37,370 nucleotides of DNA, from positions 1-37,370 of the forward strand of contig CANQBX010000037.1 of the NCBI GenBank assembly GCA_947589095.1, given 5' to 3'. Source of the DNA: an uncultured Lachnospiraceae bacterium (GTDB lineage: Bacteria > Bacillota > Clostridia > Lachnospirales > Lachnospiraceae). Below, one piece after another: positions 537 through 26,054 of this stretch (positions are counted from its first letter, which is position 1; every line of letters begins with the position of its first letter). The notes below the pieces were generated by a model, which searched no databases, was not told the DNA's origin, and saw only the letters and a list, made by a program, of their open reading frames with translations. Position numbers and translations under genes: made by a program.

Positions 537-568
537 TAACATAATCCTAAGAGTAAGGATTTTTTAGA
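537..568 (-). promoter_or_regulatory. Phage promoter-like element, copy A
   Basis: On the minus strand TCTAAA (563-568) is followed after exactly 16 bases by GATTA (542-546), within GATTATGTTA. It lies 44 bases before the start codon of the repeat protein and directly after an intrinsic terminator. Complementarity to the ribosome site is only about five pairs in this copy. Confidence 0.65.
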
Positions 569-575
569 AAGAAAA

Positions 576-608
576 TCAAAAAAACTAAGAGGGATTACTC
601 CCTCTTAG
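576..608 (-). terminator. Intrinsic terminator after the MazG-like gene
   Basis: A 10-bp perfect stem CTAAGAGGGA/TCCCTCTTAG with a 4-base loop is followed on the minus strand by seven T. The stop codon of the MazG-like gene lies in the loop. Confidence 0.9.
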
Positions 609-912
609 CGATCCGCTCCCTTGTCCGGTTTACCTTATAGAGCTTAATGCTCTGCAAATCCTCCTCCGGTATCTGGAGTAAATACTTAATCTGCTCCAGC
701 ATGATCTCTACATCTGCTATCTCCTCTTTGAGATTATCTAAGGCTACAGCTCTTTTCTCCTCTGCCACCGGCTCTCCCAACCTTGCTACAGCCCTCCGGT
801 ACTTATTCACCGCCTGTATCAGCTCAGCACACTCCTCCACAAGTTGATTACTCTGAGCCTCATACCCATAATACTTAGCATTTTCCTTATTCCTCTCTGA
901 AATACAGCACAT
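595..912 (-). CDS. MazG-like nucleotide pyrophosphohydrolase
   Basis: A 105-residue protein of the all-alpha MazG/dUTPase-2 type. The metal-binding pattern is visible as EECAELIQAVNKY (about residues 27-39) and later EEIADVEIMLEQ. MazG-type enzymes hydrolyse (d)NTPs to monophosphates, and phage versions may adjust nucleotide pools or lower alarmone levels; which applies here is not shown. The start follows AAAGAGGT at 912. It is the last gene before a strong terminator. Confidence 0.8.
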   Translation of the reverse strand: MCCISERNKENAKYYGYEAQSNQLVEECAELIQAVNKYRRAVARLGEPVAEEKRAVALDNLKEEIADVEIMLEQIKYLLQIPEEDLQSIKLYKVNRTRERIAKRE

Positions 913-918
913 ACCTCT

Positions 919-1209
919 TTATTTATCCTCCTCTTTTATTTTTAAGTGTACTGGATGCTCTCCTCTAAAAGAGAATTCTATCCATTTTCCCATAAAAGGA
1001 TAACCACTACAAAGCCGGATCGTATCAAACCAGAAATGAGCATTTCCTATCATTAAGGTACTGTAATTACAATACCACTCAATTTTTATAAGCTGATCCT
1101 CTATCATAAACTGGTATATCCTACTAAATCCATACTCATCAACCTCTACCCACTCTCCAGATATACCAACACTAGATAACTTTTTCTCTAGCTCCTCTTT
1201 ACTCATCAT
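919..1209 (-). CDS. Hypothetical phage protein, 96 aa
   Basis: No family recognised. The protein is acidic at the N terminus (MMSKEELEKKL) and rich in aromatic residues in the middle (IEWYCNYSTL, AHFWFDTIRL), suggesting a small folded beta-rich domain. The start has GGAGGG upstream. It sits between the MazG-like gene (6 bases) and a Cys-rich mini-gene. Confidence 0.6.
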   Translation of the reverse strand: MMSKEELEKKLSSVGISGEWVEVDEYGFSRIYQFMIEDQLIKIEWYCNYSTLMIGNAHFWFDTIRLCSGYPFMGKWIEFSFRGEHPVHLKIKEEDK

Positions 1210-1224
1210 ACCTTTATAACCCTC

Positions 1225-1362
1225 CTATCTCTCACACCATTCCTCACAGCTATCCCCATAGCTGGTATCCAGCCCATACATCTCACTAGCCTCACAAGTA
1301 CAGATAAATTCTCCTGTATCTCTATCCCTTTTACAATTCCCACAATTTCCACAGCACTCCAT
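1225..1362 (-). CDS. Small Cys-rich protein, 45 aa
   Basis: An ATG preceded by AGGAGGGAAATGTGCT opens a 45-codon frame. The product begins MECCGNCGNCKRDRDTGEF and contains eight cysteines (CC, CGNC, CTC and two near the C terminus), which suggests zinc binding. It lies in an otherwise empty gap between tightly packed genes, which supports it being real. Function unknown. Confidence 0.6.
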   Translation of the reverse strand: MECCGNCGNCKRDRDTGEFICTCEASEMYGLDTSYGDSCEEWCER

Positions 1363-1377
1363 AGCACATTTCCCTCC

Positions 1378-1542
1378 TTACTCATCTCCTACACTCTGAT
1401 TATAAATTTTACAAACCTTTTTAGCTTTCCTCTTATCTCCGATACTGCCGAAAACAGGTACATAAGGGTATCCTCTTTGGTGACAATACCAAGCACCGCT
1501 TTTCTCATCCTTTGATACCACATAAGGCTTTTCTTTCTTCAC
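1378..1542 (-). CDS. Small phage protein, 54 aa (GTG start)
   Basis: The GTG start overlaps the TGA of the upstream nuclease gene as GTGA, and AAGGAGG lies 8 bases before it, so translational coupling is likely. The product reads VKKEKPYVVSKDEKSG, then AWYCHQRGYPYVPVFGSIG, ending acidic. The central aromatic and glycine-rich part looks like a compact domain. No family recognised. Confidence 0.6.
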   Translation of the reverse strand: MKKEKPYVVSKDEKSGAWYCHQRGYPYVPVFGSIGDKRKAKKVCKIYNQSVGDE

Positions 1543-1973: not shown

Positions 1974-1984
1974 ACACTACCTCC

Positions 1985-2834: not shown

Positions 2835-3009
2835 GATATACCGCCCTCACTTTCCACTCTTTCAAAAACTGCTCTAAAGAGGAATAATACCTCTTAACTC
2901 CTCTAGTTGTTACAATCAGCTTATTATCCCTACACTTAGTAGAAATCTTGTAAACCCTACCACTCTGCAAAGAATCCTCATTGATCCCCAGATACTCCGC
3001 TTTTACCAT
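2824..3009 (-). CDS. Hypothetical phage protein, 61 aa
   Basis: The chosen ATG gives MVKAEYLGINEDSLQSGRVY; a longer frame from 3063 would lie inside the upstream nuclease gene. Alternating hydrophobic strands and a glycine turn (GRVYKISTK, NKLIVTTRG) resemble a small SH3/KOW-like barrel. It overlaps its neighbours on both sides, as is usual in this operon. Function unknown. Confidence 0.5.
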   Translation of the reverse strand: MVKAEYLGINEDSLQSGRVYKISTKCRDNKLIVTTRGVKRYYSSLEQFLKEWKVRAVYHGS

Positions 3010-3811
3010 CTGCACACTCCTTTTTAATCTTCTCCAGCTTAAAAACATCACGCCGCAAATCATCTAAAACACTATCCAGCTCTTTAGGATATGAGCCGCT
3101 AAGAGCTTTATCCAGATCCTCTAACCAATGCTCATTTTTATCCCATCTCCAGCCTAAAATACCATGATTAACAAGCACCTCTTTTACCTGTTTCCAGTTA
3201 TTTATATAGCTCTCCTCCTGCCTTAATCTTTCCAGCCGGAGATTAGCCTCCTCCACATCTTTAGCCAGCTTAGTACCCAGAGCACAGCCCACATACAGCT
3301 TATCTTTCTTATCTGCCAGATAATCCTTAGCATACTCAGCTCTATCCTCATAAAAAGGTATTCTGTCCTCCTCCAGCTTGCTAAAGATTATATACTTATA
3401 CAGTCCTACAGGCTCCTCTATCTGCCTATACAGGGCTTTCTTTACCGTCCTAAGCCCCTGTGTATCTGGATCATAATAAATAAGCCCAACACCCTCCGGT
3501 AACTCCTCTTTCTTCACCAGCCCCTTAGGTACTACAAAGAAAAACTCGTTACAATACTGTAAGTATAAATGCCACTTGTTATCATGCAAAAAATCATTTC
3601 TGCTTACTTTGATCTCATACCCTATAATATTAGGCTGTGTATAACTCTTAGTAATTGCCAACCCATCAAAAATAAGGAGCCCTTGCGGATCTGGGAAATA
3701 AGTGCTACAGGTTTTACACTCTGTTATAAAATAGCTCCTCCTAAATTCGTGCATCTTGCTAAGAGCTATTTTAATCTCAGTAGATGTAATCTTTCTCTTT
3801 TTCTCCTTCAT
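2978..3811 (-). CDS. MmcB-like PD-(D/E)XK nuclease
   Basis: 277 residues from the ATG at 3811; an upstream GTG at 3823 is too close to the AGGAGG. The N-terminal 120 residues match MmcB-type DNA repair nucleases: D49 in LLIFDGLAI, E66-x-K68 in IGYEIKVSRNDF, and an FFVVPKGLV strand with an ELPEGVGLIYYD segment. The remaining 150 residues are helical and charged. The gene is first behind promoter copy B. A role in repairing or processing phage DNA is inference. Confidence 0.7.
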   Translation of the reverse strand: MKEKKRKITSTEIKIALSKMHEFRRSYFITECKTCSTYFPDPQGLLIFDGLAITKSYTQPNIIGYEIKVSRNDFLHDNKWHLYLQYCNEFFFVVPKGLVKKEELPEGVGLIYYDPDTQGLRTVKKALYRQIEEPVGLYKYIIFSKLEEDRIPFYEDRAEYAKDYLADKKDKLYVGCALGTKLAKDVEEANLRLERLRQEESYINNWKQVKEVLVNHGILGWRWDKNEHWLEDLDKALSGSYPKELDSVLDDLRRDVFKLEKIKKECADGKSGVSGDQ

Positions 3812-3841
3812 GCTCCTATCCACCTCCTTTTAAGTGATACC

Positions 3842-3873
3842 TAACTTAATCACTAAAAGAGGGCTTTTTTAGA
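3842..3873 (-). promoter_or_regulatory. Phage promoter-like element, copy B, with SD-complementary arm
   Basis: TCTAAA (3868-3873), 16 bases, GATTA (3847-3851) inside GATTAAGTTA. It directly follows a terminator. The segment CCTCTTTTAGTGAT inside the element can pair with ATCACTTAAAAGGAGG, which holds the Shine-Dalgarno of the MmcB-like gene, with two single-base bulges. Confidence 0.7.
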
Positions 3874-3874
3874 C

Positions 3875-3904: not shown

Positions 3905-3915
3905 AGCTCCAATAC

Positions 3916-4357: not shown

Positions 4358-4361
4358 ATAA

Positions 4362-11992: not shown

Positions 11993-12004
11993 TACCCACA
12001 CCTC

Positions 12005-12151
12005 CTAATATCCTAAAATAATCCCTAAAAAATAAAGGGAGAAGATTACCACCCACACAGAGAGGGCTCCTAAAAAATCTGCCACTGTATCCAATACCTC
12101 TCTATGCTTTCTGTAAAATCTTCTCCACCGTTTTCTTACTACTCTTACCAT
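12005..12151 (-). CDS. Small membrane protein, 48 aa
   Basis: The ATG lies behind AGGAGGGATACAGG. The product starts with a strongly basic stretch (MVRVVRKRWRRFYRKHREVL) and ends with a single hydrophobic helix (about 26-48: GALSVWVVIFSLYFLGII...). The layout predicts a one-pass membrane protein with a cytoplasmic basic head. It is the first gene behind promoter copy C. Function unknown. Confidence 0.6.
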   Translation of the reverse strand: MVRVVRKRWRRFYRKHREVLDTVADFLGALSVWVVIFSLYFLGIILGY

Positions 12152-12179
12152 CCTGTATCCCTCCTGTGATCTTGATACT

Positions 12180-12211
12180 AAACATAATCACAAAAGAGAT
12201 TTATTTTTAGA
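12180..12211 (-). promoter_or_regulatory. Phage promoter-like element, copy C
   Basis: TCTAAA (12206-12211), 16 bases, GATTA (12185-12189). It starts 7 bases after the stop codon of the methylase gene. TGTGAT within it can pair with ATCACA, and TCTC with GGAG of the downstream ribosome site, with a bulge. Confidence 0.65.
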
Positions 12212-12218
12212 GATCCAG

Positions 12219-12767: not shown

Positions 12768-12774
12768 AGTAAAA

Positions 12775-12815
12775 CCTCCTTTTGTGATTTACTGGATCCT
12801 AATCACAAAAGGAGG
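12775..12815 (-). repeat. 15-bp perfect inverted repeat over a ribosome site
   Basis: Arms 12775-12789 and 12801-12815 with an 11-base loop. The minus-strand 3' arm AATCACAAAAGGAGG contains the Shine-Dalgarno of the methylase gene. The 5' arm lies in the spacer and -10 region of promoter copy D. Confidence 0.95.
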
Positions 12816-12826
12816 TAAGTTTTAGA
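12795..12826 (-). promoter_or_regulatory. Phage promoter-like element, copy D
   Basis: TCTAAA (12821-12826), 16 bases, GATTA (12800-12804). Transcription starting about seven bases past GATTA would begin close to the 3' arm of the inverted repeat, leaving out the anti-ribosome-site arm. Confidence 0.72.
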
Positions 12827-12828
12827 TA

Positions 12829-13236: not shown

Positions 13237-13247
13237 AACTCCTCCTT

Positions 13248-13412: not shown

Positions 13413-13422
13413 CCGGCTCCTC

Positions 13423-13557: not shown

Positions 13558-13566
13558 ATTCCTCTC

Positions 13567-15744: not shown

Positions 15745-15813
15745 CCTGCATATCCTCCTTTATGAGAAAAGGGAGGCTATATTTCCTCGCCTCCCCCTAC
15801 TCTTTCTGCCTCT

Positions 15814-16461
15814 CTAAAATACCCTACTTGCTCCTACACCGCTGGAATCTTCCCGATCTCCGCCGCTGTTATTGTTTCCCTTACTAAGCTGGAGCCGCCC
15901 CTCTATAGCCTTAATCTGATCCTCCCTATCCAGATCCAAGATAAGCGATCCTACTAAATTCTGAGGCTCCGGTACATTCCGCTCACTCTTATCCTTAGGG
16001 AAATACTGGTATGTTGTTTTCAGAGATCCCTTAGCTCCAGATCTGCGGATTTTGATATCCCTCTGAGTAAGATCTCCATACTCCGCCGTAAGCCCTAACA
16101 TCTGCTTAATATCCGTAAGCCCACGCTCCCAGAGCTGTACCTGTTTATCCTTGTCCTTTTCATCCAGATTTATCATCTGGAGAAACATCCTCAAAGAGGG
16201 CTTATTACCAGCCTTACAGAGCTCACAAGCCTCTCCCTTACAGAGTACAGTCCGATCACGCCCAGATCCATCCACATCCAGCTTGTGTACCTCAAAGATA
16301 GGAAAATCATACTTAGGCTCCTGTGTACCCTCCTCTACCCCGATCTGCCCCTTATGGAGCAATCTCACAGTAGCGGTATCACCATCATCCTTAAGCTGAA
16401 ACCATCCTGTTTTAGTAAAGCCTCCGTTATCGTACTTATCCAGTAATGCCTGTAATCCCAT
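15814..16461 (-). CDS. Phage ssDNA-binding protein (gp32-like)
   Basis: 215 residues. The central part has a cysteine set C74, C79, C82 (CKGEACELCK), followed by KPSLRMFLQMINLDEKD, the pattern of zinc-containing gp32-like phage proteins. The C-terminal tail is flexible and polar (NNNSGGDREDSSG). It should coat ssDNA at the fork and work with the polymerase encoded next. The start has GGAGGATATAGGAT upstream. Confidence 0.8.
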   Translation of the reverse strand: MGLQALLDKYDNGGFTKTGWFQLKDDGDTATVRLLHKGQIGVEEGTQEPKYDFPIFEVHKLDVDGSGRDRTVLCKGEACELCKAGNKPSLRMFLQMINLDEKDKDKQVQLWERGLTDIKQMLGLTAEYGDLTQRDIKIRRSGAKGSLKTTYQYFPKDKSERNVPEPQNLVGSLILDLDREDQIKAIEGRLQLSKGNNNSGGDREDSSGVGASRVF

Positions 16462-16501
16462 ATCCTATATCCTCCTTTATTTATGATTGAGATCCTTTTA
16501 T

Positions 16502-16660
16502 TTACAGCAACATAGCCTTTACAGCCCCTACCATGCTGTTAATGGCAAATTGCCTATTAACACTCTTTCCCACCAGCACATCAGCCTTATGCTCCTCACG
16601 TTTTACCAGCACAATAGCCTTACCCTGTAGGATTGCCAGAAACACTCTTAAACCTCTCAT
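16502..16660 (-). CDS. Small phage protein, 52 aa
   Basis: MRGLRVFLAILQGKAIVLVK continues with REEHKADVLVGKSVNRQFAI and a short helix. GAGGAGAGG lies 10 bases before the ATG. It is first behind promoter copy E and directly upstream of the ssDNA-binding protein gene. Function unknown. Confidence 0.55.
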   Translation of the reverse strand: MRGLRVFLAILQGKAIVLVKREEHKADVLVGKSVNRQFAINSMVGAVKAMLL

Positions 16661-16691
16661 TTACCATCCTCTCCTCTGTTTTCGTGATACC

Positions 16692-16723
16692 TAACTTAAT
16701 CAGTTACCGGAGATTTTTTTAGA
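16692..16723 (-). promoter_or_regulatory. Phage promoter-like element, copy E
   Basis: TCTAAA (16718-16723), 16 bases, GATTA (16697-16701) inside GATTAAGTTAGGTATCAC. The stop codon of the sigma-factor gene is the TAA within TCTAAA. TCTCC in the spacer matches GGAGA at the downstream ribosome site. Confidence 0.7.
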
Positions 16724-17318
16724 CAGCCACACCAGCAAAAACAAACTTTTTACGAATACTCTTAAAATAGTAATTTGCTGTAGCCGGAGTACACTTAAGA
16801 GCCTTTGCTACCTCTCCCTTAGATCCTCCTGCCATAAGCACATTTACCGCCACTTGCTCCTTATCATTGAGATTTAAGGATCTAAGGAGATCCCAAAACT
16901 CTACAGAGCTAATATCCTCCAGCTCTACGGTAAAGGAGCTATCCAGCTCTGTACCGCCCTCCCTATTTATCTCCACCAAACTCTCATAGCTAACAGGAGT
17001 AGAGCCGGTATAGCGTTTCTGCCTAGTTGCCTCATTGTATAAGCGGTTTAAGTGCTGGCGTACATATACCTTAAGGAGATTAGAAAACTTAAGATCCATG
17101 CTGGGATCAAAATCCTCAATAGCCCTAAGCATGGGTATGTAACTCTCACTCACCAGATCCTCTCTCTCAGCATTAGGAATACTGCTTAAATAACTGGATA
17201 CCAGAATGTTAATCAATCCGGTATTTTGAGTGATAAGCTCCTCCAGATACCTCTCATCTCTGCTCTCCCTATACAGCACCACTAATTCCTCATTTGTCCT
17301 TTTAATTCCTGTAATCAT
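16719..17318 (-). CDS. Phage sigma-70-family RNA polymerase sigma factor
   Basis: 199 residues. Region 2 (about 27-95) reads LITQNTGLINILVSSYL, EDLVSESYIPMLRAIEDFDP and KFSNLLKVYVRQHLNRL, matching core-binding and -10 recognition helices. Region 4 (about 148-195) is LNDKEQVAVNVLMAGGSKG followed by the helix-turn-helix EVAKALKCTPATANYYFKS. It should direct host RNA polymerase to phage promoters. It lies in the operon driven from the repressor-controlled promoter, and its stop lies in promoter copy E. The likely targets are copies A-H (inference). Confidence 0.85.
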   Translation of the reverse strand: MITGIKRTNEELVVLYRESRDERYLEELITQNTGLINILVSSYLSSIPNAEREDLVSESYIPMLRAIEDFDPSMDLKFSNLLKVYVRQHLNRLYNEATRQKRYTGSTPVSYESLVEINREGGTELDSSFTVELEDISSVEFWDLLRSLNLNDKEQVAVNVLMAGGSKGEVAKALKCTPATANYYFKSIRKKFVFAGVAV

Positions 17319-17334
17319 CCTGTATAATCCTCCT

Positions 17335-18360
17335 TTAATATCCTGTTAGGTAATCAACCCACCTATCTCCATACTGCTTTACAAGATCGTTAATATCTTT
17401 CAGATCCGTATCCCAGCGGAGATTAGTAAACCTAAATCCTTTTGGTATCAGCATCCGCTTTATCTGTACGGCTCCTTTTCTACCAGCCTCATCATTATCT
17501 GTAGCCAGCACATACCGCCTAAATGGAGCCCTCTCCAGCTCTCTACACTGTGCATCTGAAATATGAGAGCCCATGATAGCCACCGCATACAGCCCATAAG
17601 TAACAAGGCTTAGAGCATCAATCTCACTCTCTGTTATCCAGATCTCACTATCTGGAGTAGCTACTCCCTGTGAAAAATGCCCATTACACAGCTCCCAGAG
17701 CCCGAACACTAAAGAGCTTTTATCAATGTCCTTTGCGTTGTAAAAATGCTTTCCGGCTAAGCTCCTGCCTTTGTAAAACACCACTCTCCCCTCCGTATCT
17801 CTCACCGGAAAGAGCACTGTTTTATCTACCGGATCATAGCCCAGCTTGTAAGCATCCAAAATCCAATTAGCTAACCGCCTTTTATGTAGGTACTCACAAG
17901 CCTCAAAGCTATTTAGGAGCTCTCTGTTATACCGCTCTACCTCCTCCTCATCCATGTAGGAGGATTTCTGAGCTTGTCCTCTGTAAAGATTGAGATCCAA
18001 AGGCTCCCTCTCCGCCGCTGAGTAGTTGTACCGCCCTACCAGCCACCTATAACCAGCTAAGCTATTCTCCAGCCCCAGCACATCCGCCACAAACTGAGGT
18101 AGATCCGCTGTATAGCCACAGGTATAACAGTGGACGGTACCAGCCTCATATTTCTTATCCCTAAGCACCTTTTCCTTAAGGAGCACCCCGCAGGAGGGCT
18201 TATTTTCTTTTCCGCCCTTATGAAAAGGACAGGTAATCATGAGATCCGATCCGGTATTATTGATTTCTTTTAGGAGCCCTGTACCGTAAAGCTGGAGCTT
18301 TATATCCTTAATCACTTGCTCCACTGTGGCTACTACCGGTACCCCCCAGATCGTTATCAT
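17335..18360 (-). CDS. DnaG-type primase (zinc finger plus TOPRIM)
   Basis: 341 residues. The CHC2-like zinc finger uses C44, H47, C78 and C81 (CPFH...CYTC). The TOPRIM core has E244 (ITESEIDALSL) and the DND triad at 288-290 (ATDNDEAGRKG). There is no C-terminal helicase-binding domain or fused helicase; the helicase is a separate gene at 20417-21748. The ATG overlaps the upstream TGA as ATGA. It synthesises RNA primers for the phage fork. Confidence 0.92.
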   Translation of the reverse strand: MITIWGVPVVATVEQVIKDIKLQLYGTGLLKEINNTGSDLMITCPFHKGGKENKPSCGVLLKEKVLRDKKYEAGTVHCYTCGYTADLPQFVADVLGLENSLAGYRWLVGRYNYSAAEREPLDLNLYRGQAQKSSYMDEEEVERYNRELLNSFEACEYLHKRRLANWILDAYKLGYDPVDKTVLFPVRDTEGRVVFYKGRSLAGKHFYNAKDIDKSSLVFGLWELCNGHFSQGVATPDSEIWITESEIDALSLVTYGLYAVAIMGSHISDAQCRELERAPFRRYVLATDNDEAGRKGAVQIKRMLIPKGFRFTNLRWDTDLKDINDLVKQYGDRWVDYLTGY

Positions 18361-18746
18361 TTCTTAGCTCCCTTTTTAGGAGCTGTGAGCTTAAGCATCA
18401 CTACCTCCTGCACATTCAAGCACTCAGAGAGTACAGCCTGTGGTAAGCTACCAGCCTCTACCGCCAACAGGGTAGCATCCTCATCCACTACCTCCTTAAA
18501 CCGGATACAATTATTCAGCTTGCGATCATGGAGCTCCTGTAACAGCCTCTCCTCATCCATGCTCTTACGCTCCTGCACAATCCGCTCAAATAAGTAGCCC
18601 TGTGCATCCGTGTAATCCTTAACACCAGCCTCCGCCATAGCATCCTTAAGGAGCTTTTTGTACTTATCCTCCTCTTTTTTTGCCTGTTCAAAGGCTAACT
18701 TTTTGGCTTTATAAGCCTCATACAATTCCTCCAGTTTCATAGCCAT
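18357..18746 (-). CDS. Hypothetical coiled-coil phage protein, 129 aa
   Basis: First gene of the operon from the repressor-controlled promoter. The first 45 residues form a lysine/glutamate-rich coiled coil (KLEELYEAYKAKKLAFEQAK). The rest contains YLFERIVQERKSMDEERLL and a basic tail. It resembles small early phage proteins sometimes called nuclease inhibitors, but I cannot assign it. AAGGAGGTAGCGGTA precedes the ATG. Confidence 0.6.
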   Translation of the reverse strand: MAMKLEELYEAYKAKKLAFEQAKKEEDKYKKLLKDAMAEAGVKDYTDAQGYLFERIVQERKSMDEERLLQELHDRKLNNCIRFKEVVDEDATLLAVEAGSLPQAVLSECLNVQEVVMLKLTAPKKGAKK

Positions 18747-18782
18747 TACCGCTACCTCCTTAAATTGGTTTTTATCTCAAAC

Positions 18783-18949
18783 TACTGTTTAACAGTAGCC
18801 TAAGGGCAAAAAATATTGAGAGTACCCCATTTTATAGGTGCCCCTACTGTTTAACAGTATATCACGCTCAGTTTCCATCTGTCAATATAAAATTCTGTTA
18901 AACAGTATTTTCATTAAATTTATCTTTACTTTTCTACTGTTATACTGTA
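18783..18949. promoter_or_regulatory. Repressor operator array (four sites)
   Basis: O1 18783-18797 and O2 18845-18859 are both TACTGTTTAACAGTA. O3 18893-18907 is TTCTGTTAAACAGTA. O4 18935-18949 is a degenerate TACTGTTATACTGTA. O2 overlaps the -10 of the leftward promoter, O3 sits upstream of its -35, and O4 fills the spacer of the rightward repressor promoter. This is the layout of a CI-type switch with autoregulation. Confidence 0.88.
18856..18885 (-). promoter_or_regulatory. Leftward early promoter
   Basis: TTGACA (18880-18885), 18-base spacer, TATACT (18856-18861). It drives the 18746-16719 operon (coiled-coil protein, primase, sigma factor) and is blocked when O2 is occupied. Confidence 0.82.
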
Positions 18950-18953
18950 TAAT
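18925..18953 (+). promoter_or_regulatory. Repressor promoter
   Basis: TTTACT (18925-18930), 17-base spacer, TATAAT (18948-18953). The repressor ATG is 33 bases further on. O4 lies in the spacer. Confidence 0.75.
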
Positions 18954-18985
18954 TCTATTATCCTTTCAAGAGAGGAGGTGAGAAA

Positions 18986-19333
18986 ATGAGCACTAAATCC
19001 TCTCTACTGGATAGCTTTACAAAAGCCTTAAGTTACTATATCTCGGTATCTGGAAAGACTAAGAAAGAGATAGCGGAGGCAATAGGAGTACCGCCCACAA
19101 CTTTCTCCTCATGGAGTAACGGCAAACATCTCCCAGATATGGATAAACTGCAAAACTTAGCAGAATACCTAAACGCCCCAATAACACACTTTTTCGATTT
19201 TTCCAGCAAGCCGGAGCCACCAGATCCTATATTGGATGAGCTCATAGAGGCTTACAAACAGCTACCCAATGAGGATAAGCTCTTAGTGAGGGCACTAACA
19301 CTACGGATCCTACAGCTACAGGAAAGTAAATAA
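18986..19333 (+). CDS. CI-type XRE repressor without peptidase domain
   Basis: 115 residues, the only convincing plus-strand phage gene. The helix-turn-helix (about 22-63) reads GKTKKEIAEAIGVPPTTFSSW...LQNLAEYLNAP. A proline-rich linker (SKPEPPDP) leads to a C-terminal helix pair, probably for dimer formation. There is no LexA-like serine protease domain, so induction cannot occur by RecA-driven self-cleavage. It should bind the TACTGTTTAACAGTA sites upstream and keep the phage dormant. The start follows GAGAGGAGGTGA. Confidence 0.88.
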   Translation: MSTKSSLLDSFTKALSYYISVSGKTKKEIAEAIGVPPTTFSSWSNGKHLPDMDKLQNLAEYLNAPITHFFDFSSKPEPPDPILDELIEAYKQLPNEDKLLVRALTLRILQLQESK

Positions 19334-19347
19334 CCCTCACACCACCG

Positions 19348-19379
19348 GAGCCCTGTACCACCAATACAGGGCTCTTTTT
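19348..19379 (+). terminator. Intrinsic terminator of the repressor gene
   Basis: 10-bp stem GAGCCCTGTA/TACAGGGCTC with a 7-base loop followed by TTTTT. It separates the repressor from the convergent XRE gene. Confidence 0.92.
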
Positions 19380-19382
19380 CTA

Positions 19383-19658
19383 TCAAAAGAGCGGTATCCC
19401 CTCACCATCCTCCAGCTTTCTATCTTTCAGAGGTACCCTGTTTCCCTCTTTAGTAAAATCCATATAAGCCAGAGGCACCATGAAAAGCTCACTAAGTTTC
19501 TGAGCACTCTCCATCTTAGGAGCTGTATTACCATTCTCCCAATCTACTACTGTTTTCTCAGATACCCCCACCAGCTTAGATACCTCTTTCTGGGTATATC
19601 CGGCATTTACTCTACAGGCTGAGATCCGCCATTTCCGGCTAAAAAAATTCAGATCCAT
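19383..19658 (-). CDS. XRE-family regulator (Cro- or antirepressor-like)
   Basis: 91 residues. The N-terminal HTH is MDLNFFSRKWRISACRVNAG, then YTQKEVSKLVGVSEKTVVDWENG, a typical XRE motif, ending with a loose C terminus. Its start overlaps the TAA of the Rha-like gene (TAATG). It converges on the repressor gene. It may act as a second regulator of the switch; the target is not visible. Confidence 0.8.
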   Translation of the reverse strand: MDLNFFSRKWRISACRVNAGYTQKEVSKLVGVSEKTVVDWENGNTAPKMESAQKLSELFMVPLAYMDFTKEGNRVPLKDRKLEDGEGIPLF

Positions 19659-20137
19659 TAAGCTCTCCCCCTATCCTCCATAAATTCCTTAAACTCCTCC
19701 TCAGTAATGAGAGTTTTTACAGTAGGTACCATAACCTCTACTTTCTCCGCCTTAAGGATACCTTTCTCTATGTACCGCCTCACTGATCTCTCATTCATCC
19801 CAAGAGCCTCCGCTACCTCCTGCACTGTGTATCTCTTAGGCTCCGGCTCCACCATGATTACCGGCTCCTGCACCGGCTCTACCTTTTCTCCAAACAGAGG
19901 TAGATACTGATCCTTAAAAGCGGTACTCTTTGCCCCGATAATCCGCCCAGCGATAAGATCACATCCGGCTAAGGTAATCCCATAGGAATTTTTAGCCCTA
20001 CCCTCTGCCATGCCCTCTACAAAATACTTAGGAGCATCCTCTCCCAGATCTGTAGCCAGCTTTTTAATCGCTCTTACAAAATTATCATGCCTCCGCCCCA
20101 GCATCTCCGCTACCTGTTTACTACTAAGCATCTGCAT
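19658..20137 (-). CDS. Rha-like regulator with C-terminal helix-turn-helix
   Basis: 159 residues. The N-terminal half resembles the phage Rha family: LSSKQVAEMLGRRHDNFVRA, then KNSYGITLAGCDLIAGRI with a final FGE. After a proline/glutamate linker there is an excisionase/MerR-type HTH (YTVQEVAEALGMNERSVRRY...). Rha proteins are phage regulators that affect growth in hosts lacking certain nucleoid factors. The fusion of the two DNA-binding parts is unusual. It is first behind promoter copy F. Confidence 0.75.
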   Translation of the reverse strand: MQMLSSKQVAEMLGRRHDNFVRAIKKLATDLGEDAPKYFVEGMAEGRAKNSYGITLAGCDLIAGRIIGAKSTAFKDQYLPLFGEKVEPVQEPVIMVEPEPKRYTVQEVAEALGMNERSVRRYIEKGILKAEKVEVMVPTVKTLITEEEFKEFMEDRGRA

Positions 20138-20145
20138 ATAAAAAA

Positions 20146-20199
20146 CCTCCTTTTGTTTTCGTTAAAACAACCTAATCACAAAAGGAGGTAATTTTTAGA
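20146..20199 (-). promoter_or_regulatory. Phage promoter-like element, copy F, with SD-complementary arm
   Basis: TCTAAA (20194-20199), 16 bases, GATTA (20173-20177) inside GATTAGGTTG. The arm CCTCCTTTTGT in the spacer pairs perfectly (11 bp, 21-base loop) with ACAAAAGGAGG at 20146-20156, the ribosome site of the Rha-like gene. Confidence 0.72.
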
Positions 20200-20208
20200 G
20201 AGCTTTTA

Positions 20209-20427
20209 TTAAGTTTTACTTTTATCCTCAATTCTATAGCTACAGGCATTATTAAGAGGCTCACGATCCAGCACCACATTTCCCTCTAGGAGAGAGCTCA
20301 TTAGAATCTGAAAAAGCTCTAATTTCTCCTTACTCAGCCTAATACTATACATATCCCCATCATCCAAAATAAACACAGGATAAAACTTACCCCTATTAGC
20401 CAGATTTTCACCATCCTTAAAAGCCAT
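20209..20427 (-). CDS. Hypothetical phage protein, 72 aa
   Basis: The start MAFKDGENLANRGKFYPVFI is preferred over a Lys-rich extension to 20469, which would be encoded within the helicase gene's end. Beta-rich. A possible role with the helicase is suggested only by the overlap. Promoter copy F follows its stop codon. Confidence 0.55.
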   Translation of the reverse strand: MAFKDGENLANRGKFYPVFILDDGDMYSIRLSKEKLELFQILMSSLLEGNVVLDREPLNNACSYRIEDKSKT

Positions 20428-21748
20428 AATCCTTAGTACCTCCACTCTCCTCTTTTTCTTCTTTTCCATCCGGCTCAGTTTCCTCTTGCGGATTATCCTT
20501 AATCAGAGGATCCAGATATCCGGTATTTATATCCCACACCATAAGGATCTCTTTGTTATTGATCCCATACCTATTTTTCTTGATTGAGATCTTAAGAGTA
20601 CCATCTATCACACTAAGAGAAAGTACCCTTGTAGCATTTTGCCCTACCCCATCACTCTCCGCTAAATCATGGAGCTCTGGGCTCTGCCCCTTTTTCCGGT
20701 TTTTAACCGCCTCCCTGTTAGCCTGTGCCAAGAGGAGTACCGGCTTTTTAAGCCTCTTGCTCATAAGGAATAGATCCTCTGAGATATTGTTATAGGCTAT
20801 TCTGGGTATATCGGCTTTCCGCTTATCACTCATAAGAGAGAGCTGATCTATAATAATCATATCCGCCCCATGCTTTTTAGCCAGTGCCTCTACCTCATCC
20901 ACATTAGGCTTTCTCCCACTAAAATCATCTGGAGTAACCACAATAAAACCGCTTTTCTGGGAGAGCTGGCTTATATAATTCTCATAATCCTCCTCCAGAT
21001 AACTACCTCCATCCGTTTCCGGCTTTTTCCCCAAAGTACCGGCACCATTAAGGAGCCCCGCATTAGAAAAATGCTTATTGAGAGTATCAAACCTAAAACC
21101 AATCATCTCCCTACTCATCTCACCGGAGTAAAAGAGGATCTTATAACCCATATTCCAAGCGATAGTAGGAAAATACTCACCTATCCAGCTCTTACCTACG
21201 TTTGTTCTTCCGGTAATTACCACCAGCTCCTCTCCCCAGAGCCAGCCATTAGTAAGCTCATCCAGCTTAGGGATCCCTGTAGGTATGCCAATCAACCCCT
21301 TTACCTCACACCGCTTTTTATACTCTGCCAGCCTATCCTTAGCATTAGTGATAATATCATATCCATCCTTATTAGCGTTTACCGGTACCTCCCTTGTAAG
21401 GTTTTCCAGCTCCTCCTTTATGTACTCAATGGCTTTAAGGCTATCCTCCCTTACTAAGTCCGCTGTAGTCTGGATCACCGGTACCAGCTTAGTATAGATA
21501 TATGCCTCTTTGAGTTTCATGATAAGATAATCTGTGCTCTCAGTTACATCCAACATCTGAAAATCCTTAAACTTACTGAGAAAAGTAAGTTTATCCGGCA
21601 TCTGCCTGTATTGGCTGTAATGATCCAGTATAAAGGTTATCTCCTCCTTACAGGTAAGGAACATCTCAGCGGTAATACTATTAGAGTGCAATATCTCCAG
21701 ATCTGGAGCATCCAGCAACTTACAAATAATACTCTGCTCAATCATCAT
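20417..21748 (-). CDS. DnaB-like replicative helicase
   Basis: 443 residues. The N-terminal helical domain (1-120) is of DnaB type. The RecA-like ATPase has Walker A GRTNVGKS (180-187), GYKILFYSGEMS (motif H1a), Walker B MIIIDQLSLM, and VLLLAQANRE. The C-terminal tail is acidic. It should form the hexameric fork helicase, loaded by the DnaC-like protein encoded just upstream. Two adjacent ATGs; the first overlaps the loader's stop codon. Confidence 0.92.
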   Translation of the reverse strand: MMIEQSIICKLLDAPDLEILHSNSITAEMFLTCKEEITFILDHYSQYRQMPDKLTFLSKFKDFQMLDVTESTDYLIMKLKEAYIYTKLVPVIQTTADLVREDSLKAIEYIKEELENLTREVPVNANKDGYDIITNAKDRLAEYKKRCEVKGLIGIPTGIPKLDELTNGWLWGEELVVITGRTNVGKSWIGEYFPTIAWNMGYKILFYSGEMSREMIGFRFDTLNKHFSNAGLLNGAGTLGKKPETDGGSYLEEDYENYISQLSQKSGFIVVTPDDFSGRKPNVDEVEALAKKHGADMIIIDQLSLMSDKRKADIPRIAYNNISEDLFLMSKRLKKPVLLLAQANREAVKNRKKGQSPELHDLAESDGVGQNATRVLSLSVIDGTLKISIKKNRYGINNKEILMVWDINTGYLDPLIKDNPQEETEPDGKEEKEESGGTKDYGF

Positions 21749-22413
21749 AATACCGCCCCTCTCTTATCCATCCCCAAAAGGTTAACCTCTGTAACAGATC
21801 CTTTAATCCTGCTACTGATCCGATCATCCCCCAGCTTATCAGCCAGCCCCTTAAGGGATAAGTTACTTGTGTAAATAGTGCAAAGCCCATTAGCAGATCT
21901 GGTATTGATGATACTAACTATCCGCTCCCTTACCCATTCGGTAACTCTTTCCGCCCCTATATCATCCACGATAAGGAGCCTACAGATCTTAACCATCTCC
22001 AACTCCTCCTCAAATTCTGGAGTAGAGCTGTTATAACTATTTCTAAGATCATCCAGAAAAGTAGGTAAATAAATATACAGCCCCTCATTTTCTAAACCAG
22101 AGCTAAAGGCTATCTTACGGAAATAATACCCCATGATCTTACAAGCCCAGCTTGTTTTACCATTTCCAGTATTCTCTCCCCAGATATACAGCCCCTCTCC
22201 TCTGGCTACATGATCCACAATATTCTCCTTAAAATCATTAAGAGCTATAAAGCTCTGCATATCTTCCTTTTCCGGTATCAGATCCATCTTGTATTGATAC
22301 TTAACCGGTATCCGGCTAAGAGAGTACAGAGCTCTTAGCACCCTGTACCCTCCACAAAGCTCACTACAGGAGGCTCTATCTTTCTTACAGTAATCCTCCG
22401 CATAACACCGCAT
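21745..22413 (-). CDS. DnaC/IstB-like helicase loader ATPase
   Basis: 222 residues. Walker A GENTGNGKT (79-87), Walker B RLLIVDDIGAE, sensor IYTSNLS and an arginine-finger-like RISSRIKG make it a DnaC/DnaI-type AAA+ ATPase. The N terminus has four cysteines (3, 9, 16, 20) that could bind zinc, as in DnaI. It lies between the initiator and the helicase genes, the usual order initiator-loader-helicase. Confidence 0.9.
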   Translation of the reverse strand: MRCYAEDYCKKDRASCSELCGGYRVLRALYSLSRIPVKYQYKMDLIPEKEDMQSFIALNDFKENIVDHVARGEGLYIWGENTGNGKTSWACKIMGYYFRKIAFSSGLENEGLYIYLPTFLDDLRNSYNSSTPEFEEELEMVKICRLLIVDDIGAERVTEWVRERIVSIINTRSANGLCTIYTSNLSLKGLADKLGDDRISSRIKGSVTEVNLLGMDKRGAVL

Positions 22414-22429
22414 ATCCTTTTATCCCTCC

Positions 22430-23200
22430 TTAAAATTTCACATAAGATCCATCTGGATTAGTAGCCAGTTTGCCAGTATCCACCGGAATACTAACCGCCT
22501 CTTTCTTAACATAAGCATTTTTCCCAGATTTCTTTAGAGGGTATATATCTTTCCATCCTTGCTCTATACTCTGATCTACCATAGCCATAGCTAAAGCCGG
22601 ATCACTACCAGCATTATCCCTAAGGATAGTAGCCCACCTTTCCAAAGTCCTAAATTGAAACTTTATATTTCTCCCCTTACACACCCCTACAAATTTTACT
22701 AAGGCATCTGAGATATACTTATTCTCTGGAGCATTAAAAACCTCTTTATAAGATTTTTTTGAGGTATCTCTGGGAGCTTGCTCCTCTTTTCCTTTTGGAA
22801 AAGATTTTTCTGTATTTTTACTCTCTGTATTATTGAGTAAACTTTTTTTATTCGCACCGGATAAAATTTTTTTACTCGTTTCATCCTCAGCGGATAAAAT
22901 TTTTTTACTCGCTCTAATGGCTATATAACTGTTATAAATAATGGCTCCTTTAGTGGTACTACTCTTAGTGAGGAGCCCTTGCTCTACCAGATTATCCAGA
23001 GTATTTATAACTGTTGGTCTGGATACCCCTCCCAGCCATTCACAAAGGTAATCTACAGATCCGGTAAAAGCTGTGTTAGCTGTCTGAGAAAATCCGTAGA
23101 TAATAGCATAGAGCATAAGAGCATTACCCTTTAGCCCCAGCTCTGTTATCATCCAGCCTTGCACACAAAAATAATTATCTTCCTTGATTTTTATGCTCAT
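22430..23200 (-). CDS. Winged-helix replication initiator (DnaD/O-like)
   Basis: 256 residues; ATG at 23200 behind GGGAGG. The N-terminal winged helix (about 1-95) reads VQGWMITELGLKGNALMLYA...VDYLCEWLGGVSRPTVINTLDNL. A polar linker holds SKKILS twice, coded by near-identical DNA repeats, and a Lys/Ser-rich part. The C-terminal domain (about 150-225) resembles the helicase-loading region of phage initiators. It should mark the phage origin and recruit the loader and helicase encoded next. Confidence 0.8.
   Translation of the reverse strand: MSIKIKEDNYFCVQGWMITELGLKGNALMLYAIIYGFSQTANTAFTGSVDYLCEWLGGVSRPTVINTLDNLVEQGLLTKSSTTKGAIIYNSYIAIRASKKILSAEDETSKKILSGANKKSLLNNTESKNTEKSFPKGKEEQAPRDTSKKSYKEVFNAPENKYISDALVKFVGVCKGRNIKFQFRTLERWATILRDNAGSDPALAMAMVDQSIEQGWKDIYPLKKSGKNAYVKKEAVSIPVDTGKLATNPDGSYVKF
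22835..22911. repeat. Direct repeats in the initiator gene, possible origin iterons
   Basis: Two identical 21-bp repeats (22858-22878 and 22891-22911, core TAAAATTTTTTTACTCG) are 33 bp apart. A third diverged copy (22835-22854, TAAACTTTTTTTATTCG) lies 24 bp before the first. The region is very AT-rich and lies in the linker-coding part of the initiator gene, as the lambda origin lies in gene O. Confidence 0.5.
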
Positions 23201-23264
23201 CCAGCACACCTCCCAATAAGGAAAGAGGAGAAAGATAAACCTCCCCCTCCTCCTATAGATTTAC

Positions 23265-23480
23265 TTACTCCATTTCAGAGATCACTTTTTCGATATTATC
23301 ACATACCTCATCAAACGCCTGTTTAATAATAGCTTGCCTCTGAGAGGGAGAGGTACCTCCATCAATCATAATATTCATCCGTACAGTAGGCTTACACCAG
23401 ATACCGCTCTTATTCTGTACGCTCATCCCCAGCTCTACCTCTACCTGTGCTACCCTTGCGGTAAATTCACTCTTTGCCAT
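23265..23480 (-). CDS. Hypothetical phage protein, 71 aa
   Basis: MAKSEFTARVAQVEVELGMS leads into IWCKPTVRMNIMIDGGTSPS and a C-terminal helix. Beta-sheet pairing is likely in the first 45 residues. GGAGGATACAGATC precedes the ATG, which lies inside the end of the upstream mini-gene. No family recognised. Confidence 0.6.
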   Translation of the reverse strand: MAKSEFTARVAQVEVELGMSVQNKSGIWCKPTVRMNIMIDGGTSPSQRQAIIKQAFDEVCDNIEKVISEME

Positions 23481-23643
23481 GATCTGTATCCTCCAACTCT
23501 TTTAGATTCTTTTCTCGCCTTGCCAGCCGCTTATTTAGATCCGGTACTGAGCACCCAAATTTCCTAGCAATTACCTTTTTATGAATTAGGGTACCCTCAT
23601 TCTTCTGTTTCTGCCGTTTCAACTTTCTGCCGATACTGCTCAT
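23467..23643 (-). CDS. Small basic phage protein, 58 aa
   Basis: MSSIGRKLKRQKQKNEGTLI continues with HKKVIARKFGCSVPDLNKRL, a possible helix-turn-helix, and a charged end. GGAGGATAAAA precedes the ATG. It overlaps the genes on both sides in other frames (47 and 14 bases), which lowers confidence a little. DNA or RNA binding is plausible from its charge. Confidence 0.55.
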   Translation of the reverse strand: MSSIGRKLKRQKQKNEGTLIHKKVIARKFGCSVPDLNKRLARREKNLKELEDTDHGKE

Positions 23644-23905
23644 TTTTATCCTCCTCCATATCCTCTACATGATACCAAGTTTCCTCCCCCGTATCAATTT
23701 CTGTAGTAACCGGCTGAGGATCAATAATAACAGTAACATTACAGCAACTACTCTCAAAAGTAGGTAATCCAGAGCCATAACCATAGTTACTCCCTACCTT
23801 TGTACCCAGCATAGTAGAAATAATATCACTTAATGATTTACCATTCACCTCCAGCCCATAACCAGCATCCTTAACTTTTGCATTACTAAAGCTCAACTTA
23901 AACAT
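23597..23905 (-). CDS. Hypothetical acidic phage protein, 102 aa
   Basis: The start MFKLSFSNAKVKDAGYGLEV is supported by AAAGGAG at 8 bases. A glycine/tyrosine-rich turn (GSNYGYGSG) and a CC pair are followed by beta strands and a strongly acidic tail. It is the first gene of the replication operon behind promoter copy G. Function unknown. Confidence 0.6.
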   Translation of the reverse strand: MFKLSFSNAKVKDAGYGLEVNGKSLSDIISTMLGTKVGSNYGYGSGLPTFESSCCNVTVIIDPQPVTTEIDTGEETWYHVEDMEEDKNEQYRQKVETAETEE

Positions 23906-23952
23906 CTTGCAATCTCCTTTCATTTTTGGTAGTTTTCCTACCGTTGATACTC

Positions 23953-23984
23953 TAACCTAATCAGCAACGATCCATTTTTTTAGA
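23953..23984 (-). promoter_or_regulatory. Phage promoter-like element, copy G
   Basis: TCTAAA (23979-23984), 16 bases, GATTA (23958-23962) inside GATTAGGTTAGAGTATCAAC. It lies after a terminator and drives the operon that holds the initiator, loader and helicase. CGTTG/CAACG around the -10 forms a small dyad; the ribosome site is not paired here. Confidence 0.7.
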
Positions 23985-24004
23985 TACTCCTCACAAGTTA
24001 GGAC

Positions 24005-24035
24005 AAAAAAAAGAGGAGCCTTTTACAGCTCCTCT
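24005..24035 (-). terminator. Intrinsic terminator
   Basis: 8-bp stem AGAGGAGC/GCTCCTCT with an 8-base loop followed on the minus strand by eight T. It ends the MerR-like gene and insulates promoter copy G. Confidence 0.92.
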
Positions 24036-24054
24036 AAACCACTCACTATTAGGA

Positions 24055-24282
24055 TTATTCCTTGTGCCGTTCTTTCACAGATTTACCAGCATACCGCTGT
24101 ATAAGCTCCAGCTCCTCCTCAGTCCAATATCGGTAATCATTTTCATCCCTTACAGAGCTAGGTATTTTTCCAGCATCCTCCCAGAGGCGGATAGTCTGAG
24201 TAGATACACCACATAAACTAGCAACCTCTTTCCGGCTATATACTCTTTTCCCTGTTTCCTCATCTATAGTAATTACTCTCAT
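24055..24282 (-). CDS. MerR/excisionase-like DNA-binding protein
   Basis: 75 residues. The HTH reads YSRKEVASLCGVSTQTIRLW, then EDAGKIPSSVRDENDYRYWT, the classic MerR/Xis winged motif. Its small size suits an excisionase or a regulator. It has its own sigma-A promoter and terminator, so it is expressed independently of its neighbours. An excisionase role would fit its closeness to the attachment site. Confidence 0.8.
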   Translation of the reverse strand: MRVITIDEETGKRVYSRKEVASLCGVSTQTIRLWEDAGKIPSSVRDENDYRYWTEEELELIQRYAGKSVKERHKE

Positions 24283-24303
24283 AAAATCACGCTCCTCCAG
24301 CTC

Positions 24304-24333
24304 ATTATACTATATACTCTCTCAAAGTTTCAA
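24304..24333 (-). promoter_or_regulatory. Sigma-A promoter of the MerR-like gene
   Basis: TTGAAA (24328-24333), 18-base spacer, TATAAT (24304-24309). It lies over the end of the helicase gene upstream. The ATG is 22 bases past the -10. Confidence 0.8.
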
Positions 24334-25995
24334 GAGTTTCTTAAGTATAGTTTGTACATCCGTTTTTCTTCCCTTGCCATCTACCACTCTCTCAAAAAGC
24401 TCCTTATTTTCTATCAAATACTCCTCTACACCCTCATCTATGGATCCCTTAGCCACTAAGGAGATAACATTTACTGTACCGGCTGTACCTATTCTGTGTG
24501 CTCTATCCTCAGCCTGCTCATTTTCTCCACTATTCCACAACTTATCCACAAAGAACACATAAGAGGCTTTATTGAGAGTTAAGCCGGTACCCATAGCTCC
24601 AATAGTACCTATAGCCAATTTACACTCTGGATCTGTCTGGAAACGTTCTACCGCTTTCTGCCGATCCTCTGGAGATACCTTACCGGTAATGTAAATAGGA
24701 TTATACTCCCTCAGAGCCTCCAGATAGATAGAAGTAATGCTTTCCCACTGAGAAAAGATAATAGCCTTATATCCATTAGGTATAATCTCCTCATCCAGCA
24801 TATCCTTTACCCTATCCAGTTTAGGATTATCCTCAGTGAAAAGCCCTCCGGTAAGCTGTCTAAGCCTCAGAGTACAGCTTAGAGGATCCACACTGGTAAG
24901 AATATCCTCCAGATTATTTATAATCCCCTGTTTAATCTCCCTGTAGATAAGTTGCTGTTTTCTGGTAAGCTCTACATACTCTGTACTATGCACCTTAGGC
25001 GGCAAATCCAGTACCTCCTCTTTTTTTCGCCGGAGCATTACCTTATTTAACTCAGCATTGAGGCTATCTAAATTCTTATGCCCCACTACTTGATATCCGC
25101 CATATCCGCCCATGATACAATAGGTATTTCTAAAACTGTAAAAGCTCCTCTTTTCCACTCCCAGCCATGTAAGGATATTCCATAGATCCTCTGCCTTATT
25201 CATGGGAGTACCGGATAACCCTATCCGTATAGGCGTTTTCAGTGTTCTAAGGGCTTTTCCTTGCTGGCTGGATCCGTTCTTAGCCTTGTGGATCTCATCC
25301 ACAATAACAGCTCCTATATAGCCATCTTTAATACCCACATAGAGAGCATCCTGTATTTTCTCATTTCTAAGGCTTTCTATGTTAATGATACCAAAATACT
25401 CAGCCCCTGTGTACCAATCATTTATCTGAGCCACCCTAATATCCATAGTCCTACCGTCAATCATAGCCGCCTTTTCCTTAGAATGAGTGGCAATCTCTTT
25501 TTCCCAATTATACTTAACTGAGTTAACTCCGCATACAATAAGAGTTTTTACCAGCTCTCTCTTTCTGGCTACTGTAATATCAATGCTCTCCTTAGTCTTT
25601 CCTAAGCCTTGCTCATCACCAATAAGGAGCCGATCTCTTTCCATGCCATAATTAAAAGCCTCGATCTGGTGAGGGAGAGGAGCTGTGGTAAAGGAAAAAT
25701 TTACTACCGGCTTGATCCCCTTAAGCCTTTTCTCTGTAGCCTCCCTTTTATCCTCTATCTCCTGTGATCTAAGGGCTCCTATCAGCCTATCCTCAGCACT
25801 AATATTATTAAGCCCTACTTTCTCCACAAGATTAGGGAGTTCAAAGCTGGGTATCTCCCATGCTCTATCATCCGGCAAATACCTCCGCTGAGCCAGCTCC
25901 TTTACCTTTGCTACTGTAACCGGATCATACCTAAATGAGAGCTTGTAGGCATCCTCAAAGTATGTACCCTTTCCTATTTTTTCTACCTTAATCAT
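24322..25995 (-). CDS. SNF2-family DNA helicase/translocase
   Basis: 557 residues from the ATG at 25995 (AGGAGG, 7 bases). An N-terminal HARP-like part (YKLSFRYDPVTVAKV...DRAWEIP) resembles the annealing-helicase family. Motif I is DEQGLGKT (127-134), motif II DEIH (233-236), motif III GLSGTP, motif VI AEDRAHRIG. Phage members probably remodel forks or displace proteins. It is the first phage gene from the right junction and has promoter copy H. Confidence 0.9.
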   Translation of the reverse strand: MIKVEKIGKGTYFEDAYKLSFRYDPVTVAKVKELAQRRYLPDDRAWEIPSFELPNLVEKVGLNNISAEDRLIGALRSQEIEDKREATEKRLKGIKPVVNFSFTTAPLPHQIEAFNYGMERDRLLIGDEQGLGKTKESIDITVARKRELVKTLIVCGVNSVKYNWEKEIATHSKEKAAMIDGRTMDIRVAQINDWYTGAEYFGIINIESLRNEKIQDALYVGIKDGYIGAVIVDEIHKAKNGSSQQGKALRTLKTPIRIGLSGTPMNKAEDLWNILTWLGVEKRSFYSFRNTYCIMGGYGGYQVVGHKNLDSLNAELNKVMLRRKKEEVLDLPPKVHSTEYVELTRKQQLIYREIKQGIINNLEDILTSVDPLSCTLRLRQLTGGLFTEDNPKLDRVKDMLDEEIIPNGYKAIIFSQWESITSIYLEALREYNPIYITGKVSPEDRQKAVERFQTDPECKLAIGTIGAMGTGLTLNKASYVFFVDKLWNSGENEQAEDRAHRIGTAGTVNVISLVAKGSIDEGVEEYLIENKELFERVVDGKGRKTDVQTILKKLLKL

Positions 25996-26002
25996 AAAGA
26001 TA

Positions 26003-26054
26003 CCTCCTGTGATTGATTTAATTAACCTAATCACAGGAGGCTCTTATATTTAGA
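26003..26054 (-). promoter_or_regulatory. Phage promoter-like element, copy H, with SD-complementary arm
   Basis: TCTAAA (26049-26054), 16 bases, GATTA (26028-26032) inside GATTAGGTTA. CCTCCTGTGATT in the spacer/-10 pairs perfectly (12 bp, 14-base loop) with AATCACAGGAGG, which holds the ribosome site of the SNF2 gene. Confidence 0.75.

Follow-up and report, generated by a model that had tools for sequence, protein, structure and literature searches.

The DNA analysed in this study, referred to here as the window, is a stretch of 37,370 nucleotides (nt) from an uncultured Lachnospiraceae bacterium (assembly GCA_947589095.1, contig CANQBX010000037.1), and its phage arm carries eight copies of a short element, TCTAAA-N16-GATTA, ahead of minus-strand genes. 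We consider it likely that these elements are the promoters of a phage sigma regulon, and that many of the gene starts concerned are insulated from upstream transcription by a terminator or by a hairpin over the Shine-Dalgarno (SD) sequence. The best-supported reading of the elements is the one that an initial annotation of the window had proposed, promoters of a class unlike those of host sigma-A, and it draws this support from comparison across relatives and sigma types. The same comparison gives good support to the view that the family would constitute a regulon governed by the sigma factor that the phage itself encodes, and gating of translation by the hairpins is a strong prediction from the sequences. 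Both the sigma gene (16719-17318) and the SD hairpins at elements 12211, 12826, 20199 and 26054 had been missed by the initial annotation.

The eight-copy motif family in the window is real. TCTAAA-N(14-18)-GATTA has nine matches in the window against 0.19 expected by chance, and none of 100 shuffles reached nine. Eight of these matches, which are the copies reported initially, are all on the minus strand with a gap of exactly N16, and the distance from the first T of TCTAAA to the start codon is 59-79 nt; the ninth, at 24033, is on the plus strand with a gap of N14 and lacks the remainder of the motif. The downstream extension GATTA-N-GTTA-N2-TATCA had also been described as conserved, which holds in part: it is exact in three of the eight copies (568, 3873 and 16723; copies are named by their highest coordinate), differs by a single base in 12211, and fits the remaining four (12826, 20199, 23984 and 26054) more loosely. 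Intrinsic terminators, which had been claimed for three elements, were found upstream of 568, 3873 and 23984, and the U tract of the terminator before 23984 ends approximately 20 nt 5′ of TCTAAA. The scan for sites resembling the host sigma-A consensus TTGACA-N16-18-TATAAT covered positions 12000-27400, with elements 568 and 3873 outside it, and none of the six elements within this region coincides with a listed minus-strand site, in agreement with the earlier statement that the boxes are unlike those of sigma-A.

Beyond the window, the 4.1-Mb genome contains six exact matches to TCTAAA-N16-GATTANGTTA, five on the contig of the window (C37) and one on contig C29. Its four one-mismatch matches are also all on C37 and C29, and one of them (22538), which lies within a gene, was taken as chance. 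At two mismatches other contigs of the genome also give some matches, and at three mismatches the whole-genome counts no longer exceed those of the reversed-pattern control (23 and 36 vs. 31 and 40). Contig C29 carries integrase, endolysin, tail, major head, portal and terminase genes, and its elements (L033 2591, L032 18708, L032 10305 and L031 14030, given as locus and position) have 0, 1, 2 and 2 mismatches, respectively; we are less sure that the two-mismatch elements are family members. Composition, gene content and the shared motif suggest that C37 and C29 are parts of one prophage. On the minus strand of L031 (G000:C29; 12347-13606 and 14136-15959), a reverse transcriptase gene (phrog_1423, E 8.6e-121) adjoins a tail protein gene, and this arrangement possibly represents a diversity-generating retroelement.

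Relatives of the phage were found in IMG/VR, where the DNA polymerase of phage loci is 74-86% identical to that of the window, and further loci in Blautia, Roseburia and uncultured Clostridia assemblies have a DNA polymerase that is 74-80% identical; among 397 family-level and 392 order-level genomes searched with the DNA polymerase at E 1e-120, the window's own genome alone matched. A scan of viral contigs with the exact motif gave 38 stretches, and clustering at 85% left 97 non-redundant elements, designated class 1 here. TCTAAA and TGATTA-N-GTT are near-invariant in this set and TATCA is weaker, so the strong core is TCTAAA-N15-TGATTA-N-GTT(A). The spacing, which had been recognised as that of a -35/-10 pair, is identical in 83 of 83 matches from 24 partly overlapping loci, with gaps of 8-27 permitted. 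The initial annotation had held that a motif equally frequent within genes and in both orientations would speak against promoters. All 80 matches at the 19 loci with class-1 matches lie on one strand, a count that takes in two in-gene chance matches, repeats from near-identical assemblies, and L109 and L132, where the orientation is not set by a gene.

The window encodes a candidate reader of these elements, a sigma-70-family factor whose gene occupies 16719-17318 on the minus strand. Its protein matches phrog_351, a phage sigma family, with an E value of 5.8e-17. Sigma70_r2 was detected in all 12 aligned proteins (E 0.01 or better), and the window sigma alone scores 23.7 bits for region 2, just below the 24-bit Pfam cut-off; for region 4, Sigma70_r4_2 was detected in 4 of the 12 aligned proteins and a GerE-type helix-turn-helix in 11. 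Searched with a profile, the PDB yielded 83 matching sequences, and the 60 of these that were listed are all sigma factors. An AlphaFold2 model of the window sigma (mean pLDDT 72.7, pTM 0.48) retrieved mostly sigma factors in Foldseek, with TM-scores up to 0.43. A tblastn search with the window sigma at 1e-5 gave no match among 50,697 phage records. We also considered a phage RNA polymerase, and none was present among the scanned proteins, which are a subset of all open reading frames (ORFs).

Evidence that this sigma factor and the elements belong together comes from loci that differ in sigma type. In a table of 31 loci, class 1 is present and class 2 absent in all 16 type A loci, whose sigma is 53-100% identical to that of the window; the sigma genes of L046-L050 are of equal identity and probably one phage's copies, and the 16 loci therefore represent approximately 12 phages. 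The reverse is found in all three type B loci (L041, L042 and L082), where class 2 is present and class 1 absent, and where the DNA polymerase is 74-77% identical to that of the window. Counting of word pairs on L042 gave TTTGTCTAA-N17-GTTAT. Class 2, TCTAAA-N15-GGTTATTACTC, has four matches within two mismatches in each of the three loci, and compared with class 1 the first box and the spacing are kept and the second box is replaced by GGTTATTACTC. The type B sigma factors of L041 and L042 are 39% identical to the window sigma; that of L082 has no match to the window sigma and is 67% identical to that of L042. Loci with a third sigma type (type C; L038 and L102) have neither class, with one similar element after the sigma gene of L038, and L053 and L054, whose sigma factors are 40-41% identical, have neither class in 3.5 kb. 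Sigma factors of types B and C match the window sigma least well in regions 2.3-2.4, with 28-31% and 17% identity compared with 44% and 37%, respectively, in region 4, which agrees with a changed -10 box and a kept -35 box. Because the second box switches with the sigma factor in otherwise related phages, the phage's own sigma, 16719-17318 in the window, is probably the cognate factor of the elements.

The second part of our interpretation concerns the RNA downstream of the elements. In four of the eight window copies (12211, 12826, 20199 and 26054), spacer and downstream SD sequence form a hairpin, with z values of -3.9 to -5.5 and 0 of 200 shuffles as stable; the folding of copies 568, 3873, 16723 and 23984 is not beyond that of shuffles. 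The two boxes overlap the 5′ arm and the loop of the hairpin, and the RNA is assumed to start within the loop, 33 nt downstream from the first T of the TCTAAA box. We defined the SD-opening gap as the cost of freeing the SD sequence in read-through RNA compared with RNA begun at the element, and calculated it for 90 class-1 elements. These are the 97 elements without five removed as chance, in-gene or lone matches (window 22538, L083 2262, L112 3913, L116 3333 and L135 8911) and two removed for want of a start codon (L031 14030 and L115 4662).

The gap reaches 8 kcal/mol or more in 34 of the 90 elements, and gaps of this size are concentrated where a terminator is lacking. The first terminator detector gave 3 of 35 elements with an upstream terminator vs. 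31 of 55 without (p 4e-6). It was seen to miss terminators overlapping TCTAAATTTTT, after which a second, corrected detector was written, and this gave 4 of 41 vs. 30 of 49 (p 3e-7); with the start site varied from 27 to 37, the counts are 3-4 of 39-41 vs. 29-31 of 49. At L045 4059, L046 4482, L084 1713, L129 627 and L040 2802, the U tract of the terminator is apparently TCTAAATTTTT, and the -35 box would thus sit inside the terminator. One element, L045 14674, was probably mis-scored because a duplicated SD sequence and start codon follow it. Counted over the 90 elements, 37 have only a terminator, 30 only a hairpin and 4 both. Class 2 together with L038, for which positions were listed by hand, gave 0 of 11 with a terminator vs. 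7 of 9 without, and as L041 and L042 are close relatives, these seven hairpins occupy only two orthologous genes. Five orthologue groups hold 26 of the 34 large gaps (Rha-like 10 of 10, SNF2 8 of 8, Dam-like 3 of 3, FYPTP 2 of 2 and MT-A70 3 of 5), and no member of these groups has a detected terminator. An exact TATCA, 34-38 positions after the first T, is present in 23 of the 34 class-1 elements with small gaps (<4) vs. 9 of the 34 with large gaps.

According to the mechanism that we propose, TCTAAA would be the -35 box, TGATTA-N-GTTA the -10 box plus an extension, and the reader would be the host core RNA polymerase carrying the phage-encoded sigma, with which it would direct initiation. 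A host-sigma-A-like promoter, probably covered by repressor operators, precedes the sigma gene, so sigma would be the first to be produced on induction and would in turn activate the replication operon, a number of single genes and the C29 operons with the structural genes. Two modes of insulation against upstream transcription are envisaged: either a terminator lies 5′ of the promoter, or the promoter spacer and the SD sequence form the 5′ and 3′ arms, respectively, of a hairpin. In read-through RNA the hairpin would form and hide the ribosome site, and RNA begun in the loop would be without the 5′ arm and be translated. The computation established the motif, its fixed spacing, the strand bias, the change of the second box with sigma type and an SD complementarity in excess of spacer-swap controls, and we infer the transcript starts, the binding and specificity of sigma, the order of expression and the effect on translation. 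The design would resemble the shielding of IS10/Tn10 against external transcription, where read-through RNA covers the ribosome site and own-promoter RNA does not, although that system is a transposon with a host sigma-70 promoter and a single gene.

Several observations weigh against this interpretation, and some of them favour alternatives. The elements could be promoters or operators read by a host alternative sigma factor or a phage activator, with the sigma gene merely co-travelling, since sigma and polymerase are linked to the elements by sharing one genome. The sigma factor of L040 has a changed region-4 helix, yet its elements have the same TCTAAA. The sigma factor of the G047 phage is 69% identical in regions 2.3-2.4 and 29% in region 4, and the expectation tested on G047:C27 and G194:C111 was that GATTA is kept and the -35 box is different; on these contigs no word pair is clearly enriched, and there are single candidates only. 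The candidates, L155 1731 (minus) and L156 13848 (plus), come from phages whose sigma factors are more distant, and have a TGATTA-type second box, with TATAAA or GTAAAA replacing TCTAAA. We nevertheless consider a reader other than the phage sigma unlikely, because the second box tracks the sigma type in all 19 type A and B loci despite their related DNA polymerases, and because exact and one-mismatch copies are confined to C37 and C29.

The remaining points against our interpretation concern the insulators. Neither a terminator nor a hairpin was found in 19 of the 90 elements, and several orthologue groups have neither. Orthologues are not independent, and over 24 orthologue groups the relation between terminators and hairpins is not significant (p 0.18); for elements with a terminator, too, long RNA is more strongly folded than short RNA (p 3e-8). 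Furthermore, the replication operon lies behind element 23984 of the same class, so the RNA entering 20199 may be sigma-dependent too. In this case, the hairpins may uncouple neighbours and not separate early from late expression, and the early-late logic of phage T4 need not apply. The promoters could be real and the SD complementarity a by-product, without a role, of spacers that are C/T-rich overall at positions 11-15 in the 97 non-redundant elements. In the SNF2 group, own spacers are indeed no better than those of orthologues (21 of 54) and appear interchangeable. However, in 669 of 754 swaps (28 elements from the five groups), own spacers did as well as or better than those from the other hairpin elements, and with the five groups taken together they also equalled or surpassed orthologues' spacers (p 1.4e-4), as is plain in the Rha-like group (79 of 90). 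Behind terminators, SD complementarity is no greater than in spacer swaps (p 0.76), and the hairpin of the Rha-like gene is kept with different letters in 3 of 3 class-2 loci. A by-product is therefore quite improbable, and hairpins that act on translation are the explanation that we prefer.

The elements might finally be RNA control elements (a riboswitch, or a translational operator bound by protein, in which UCUAA could pair with a UUAGR loop in a pseudoknot and a stem hides the SD sequence), which was our first idea and would suit the folding of half the window copies over the SD far beyond shuffles and the conservation past GATTA, but which we dropped as very improbable: many copies lie so close behind a terminator that little RNA arrives, approximately half keep the boxes and spacing without a strong hairpin, the second box follows the sigma type, the UCUAA-UUAGR pairing is broken in several copies, and Rfam 15 covariance models match none of the window elements up to E 5. 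Up to the same E value, Rfam 15 has two matches in the window, both outside the phage arm; a T-box leader (100.7 bits) lies at 34086-34344 on the plus strand, in the host part of the contig.

The eight elements, all on the minus strand, head the genes that would form the regulon in the window, and the replication operon, SNF2 helicase, methyltransferase and MmcB-like gene named initially are among them. Element 26054 (26016..26054) precedes the SNF2 helicase gene (likely start 25995), and in its SD hairpin the spacer provides the 5′ arm, CCTCCTGTGATT (26040-26029), which pairs with AATCACAGGAGG (26014-26003). Element 23984 (23946..23984) heads the replication operon behind a terminator with its stem at 24035-24012. 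Element 20199 (20161..20199; hairpin arms 20189-20178 and 20156-20145) heads a Rha-like regulator gene (19658-20137). The TCTAAA of element 16723 (16685..16723) overlaps the stop codon of the sigma gene; without a terminator or a strong hairpin, it is followed by a first gene at 16502-16660 and then SSB. Element 12826 (12788..12826; arms 12816-12801 and 12789-12774) heads an MT-A70 methyltransferase gene (12219-12767), and element 12211 (12173..12211; arms 12200-12186 and 12171-12157) is followed by an ORF at 12005-12151 and a Cas4-like exonuclease gene (10799-12001). Element 3873 (3835..3873), with a terminator directly 5′ and only modest SD pairing, heads an MmcB-like gene (within 2978-3823, likely start 3811). 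Element 568 (530..568), also with a terminator directly 5′, precedes a gene start near 492, and this gene apparently runs off the contig.

Upstream of the primase and sigma operon, the minus strand has a sigma-A-like promoter, TTGACA-18-TATACT, at 18856..18885 (11 of 12 positions, with TG before the second box), from which the order is 18357-18746, the primase gene and then the sigma gene. As a class, sigma-A-like sites are not enriched in the region scanned (25 found vs. 29.3 expected), and this promoter therefore rests on its own match and on four related palindromes of the TACTGTTTAACAGTA type at 18783..18949, probable repressor operators over and around it. Divergent from the sigma operon, an HTH_3 (helix-turn-helix) regulator gene at 18986..19333 on the plus strand encodes a probable repressor. 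The HTH_3 gene, the palindromes and the promoter probably constitute a lysogeny switch controlling the sigma gene. No minus-strand terminator is listed between 20029 and 17108; RNA from element 20199 could continue on the minus strand to 18746, antisense through 18986-19333, into the sigma operon, and a feedback loop is thus possible. A MerR-family regulator gene (24055-24282, minus) lies directly downstream of another sigma-A-like site (24333-24304, 11 of 12).

Phage sigma factors with private promoters are an already known kind (PMC9429907 and PMC4331800), and as in the regulons of SPO1 and phiEco32, a phage sigma factor and a private promoter motif before phage genes occur together here. 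PMC9429907 names gp28 and gp34 as sigma factors of SPO1, a phage of Firmicutes in which phage sigma factors drive the later (middle and late) gene classes. In phages phiEco32 and 7-11, the motif is TGATGT with TATA and stands before phage operons, and for 7-11 it was inferred by genome comparison (PMC4331800); the present case differs in its rigid TCTAAA-N15-TGATTA pair and in belonging to a temperate phage of Clostridia. The Listeria phage promoters described in PMC12282133 are close to sigma-A, and TCTAAA occurs once in PMC7438776, within a table of host promoters. For the hairpins, the nearest likeness is with the T4 genes e, soc, 49 and I-TevI, in which a structure in read-through RNA covers the ribosome site and own-promoter RNA is without the 5′ part; the late promoters of gene e lie in the region encoding the structure's 5′ strand (PMC3014915). 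A stable structure over the SD sequence in read-through RNA, as in gene e, is found in four of the eight window copies. However, the phage and the sigma factor are different from those of T4, and here the predicted design recurs at several gene families beside copies insulated by terminators. In a literature search that covered few subscription papers, we recognised no description of the motif or of its prophage sigma system, which leaves standing the initial view that no promoter class of this form had been described.

The promoter specificity of phage sigma factors is seldom readable from sequence. In this family, relatives with different sigma types have different -10 boxes in front of the same genes, and the sigma-promoter code is thereby directly testable. 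An arrangement in which the promoter is an arm of the hairpin is known from a few T4 genes and seems to be a recurring building block here, a compact part in which translation would hinge on the part's own promoter. We give about even odds to a wider statement: that, in this phage lineage, most sigma-driven starts need their own promoter for translation, owing to a preceding terminator or to a promoter that serves as the antisense arm of an SD hairpin, and that sigma types are swapped and the -10 box rewritten, with the -35 box, spacing and insulators kept at the same genes. If this is true, the exchange of sigma types with genome-wide rewriting of the -10 box would be a natural experiment in sigma-promoter coevolution.

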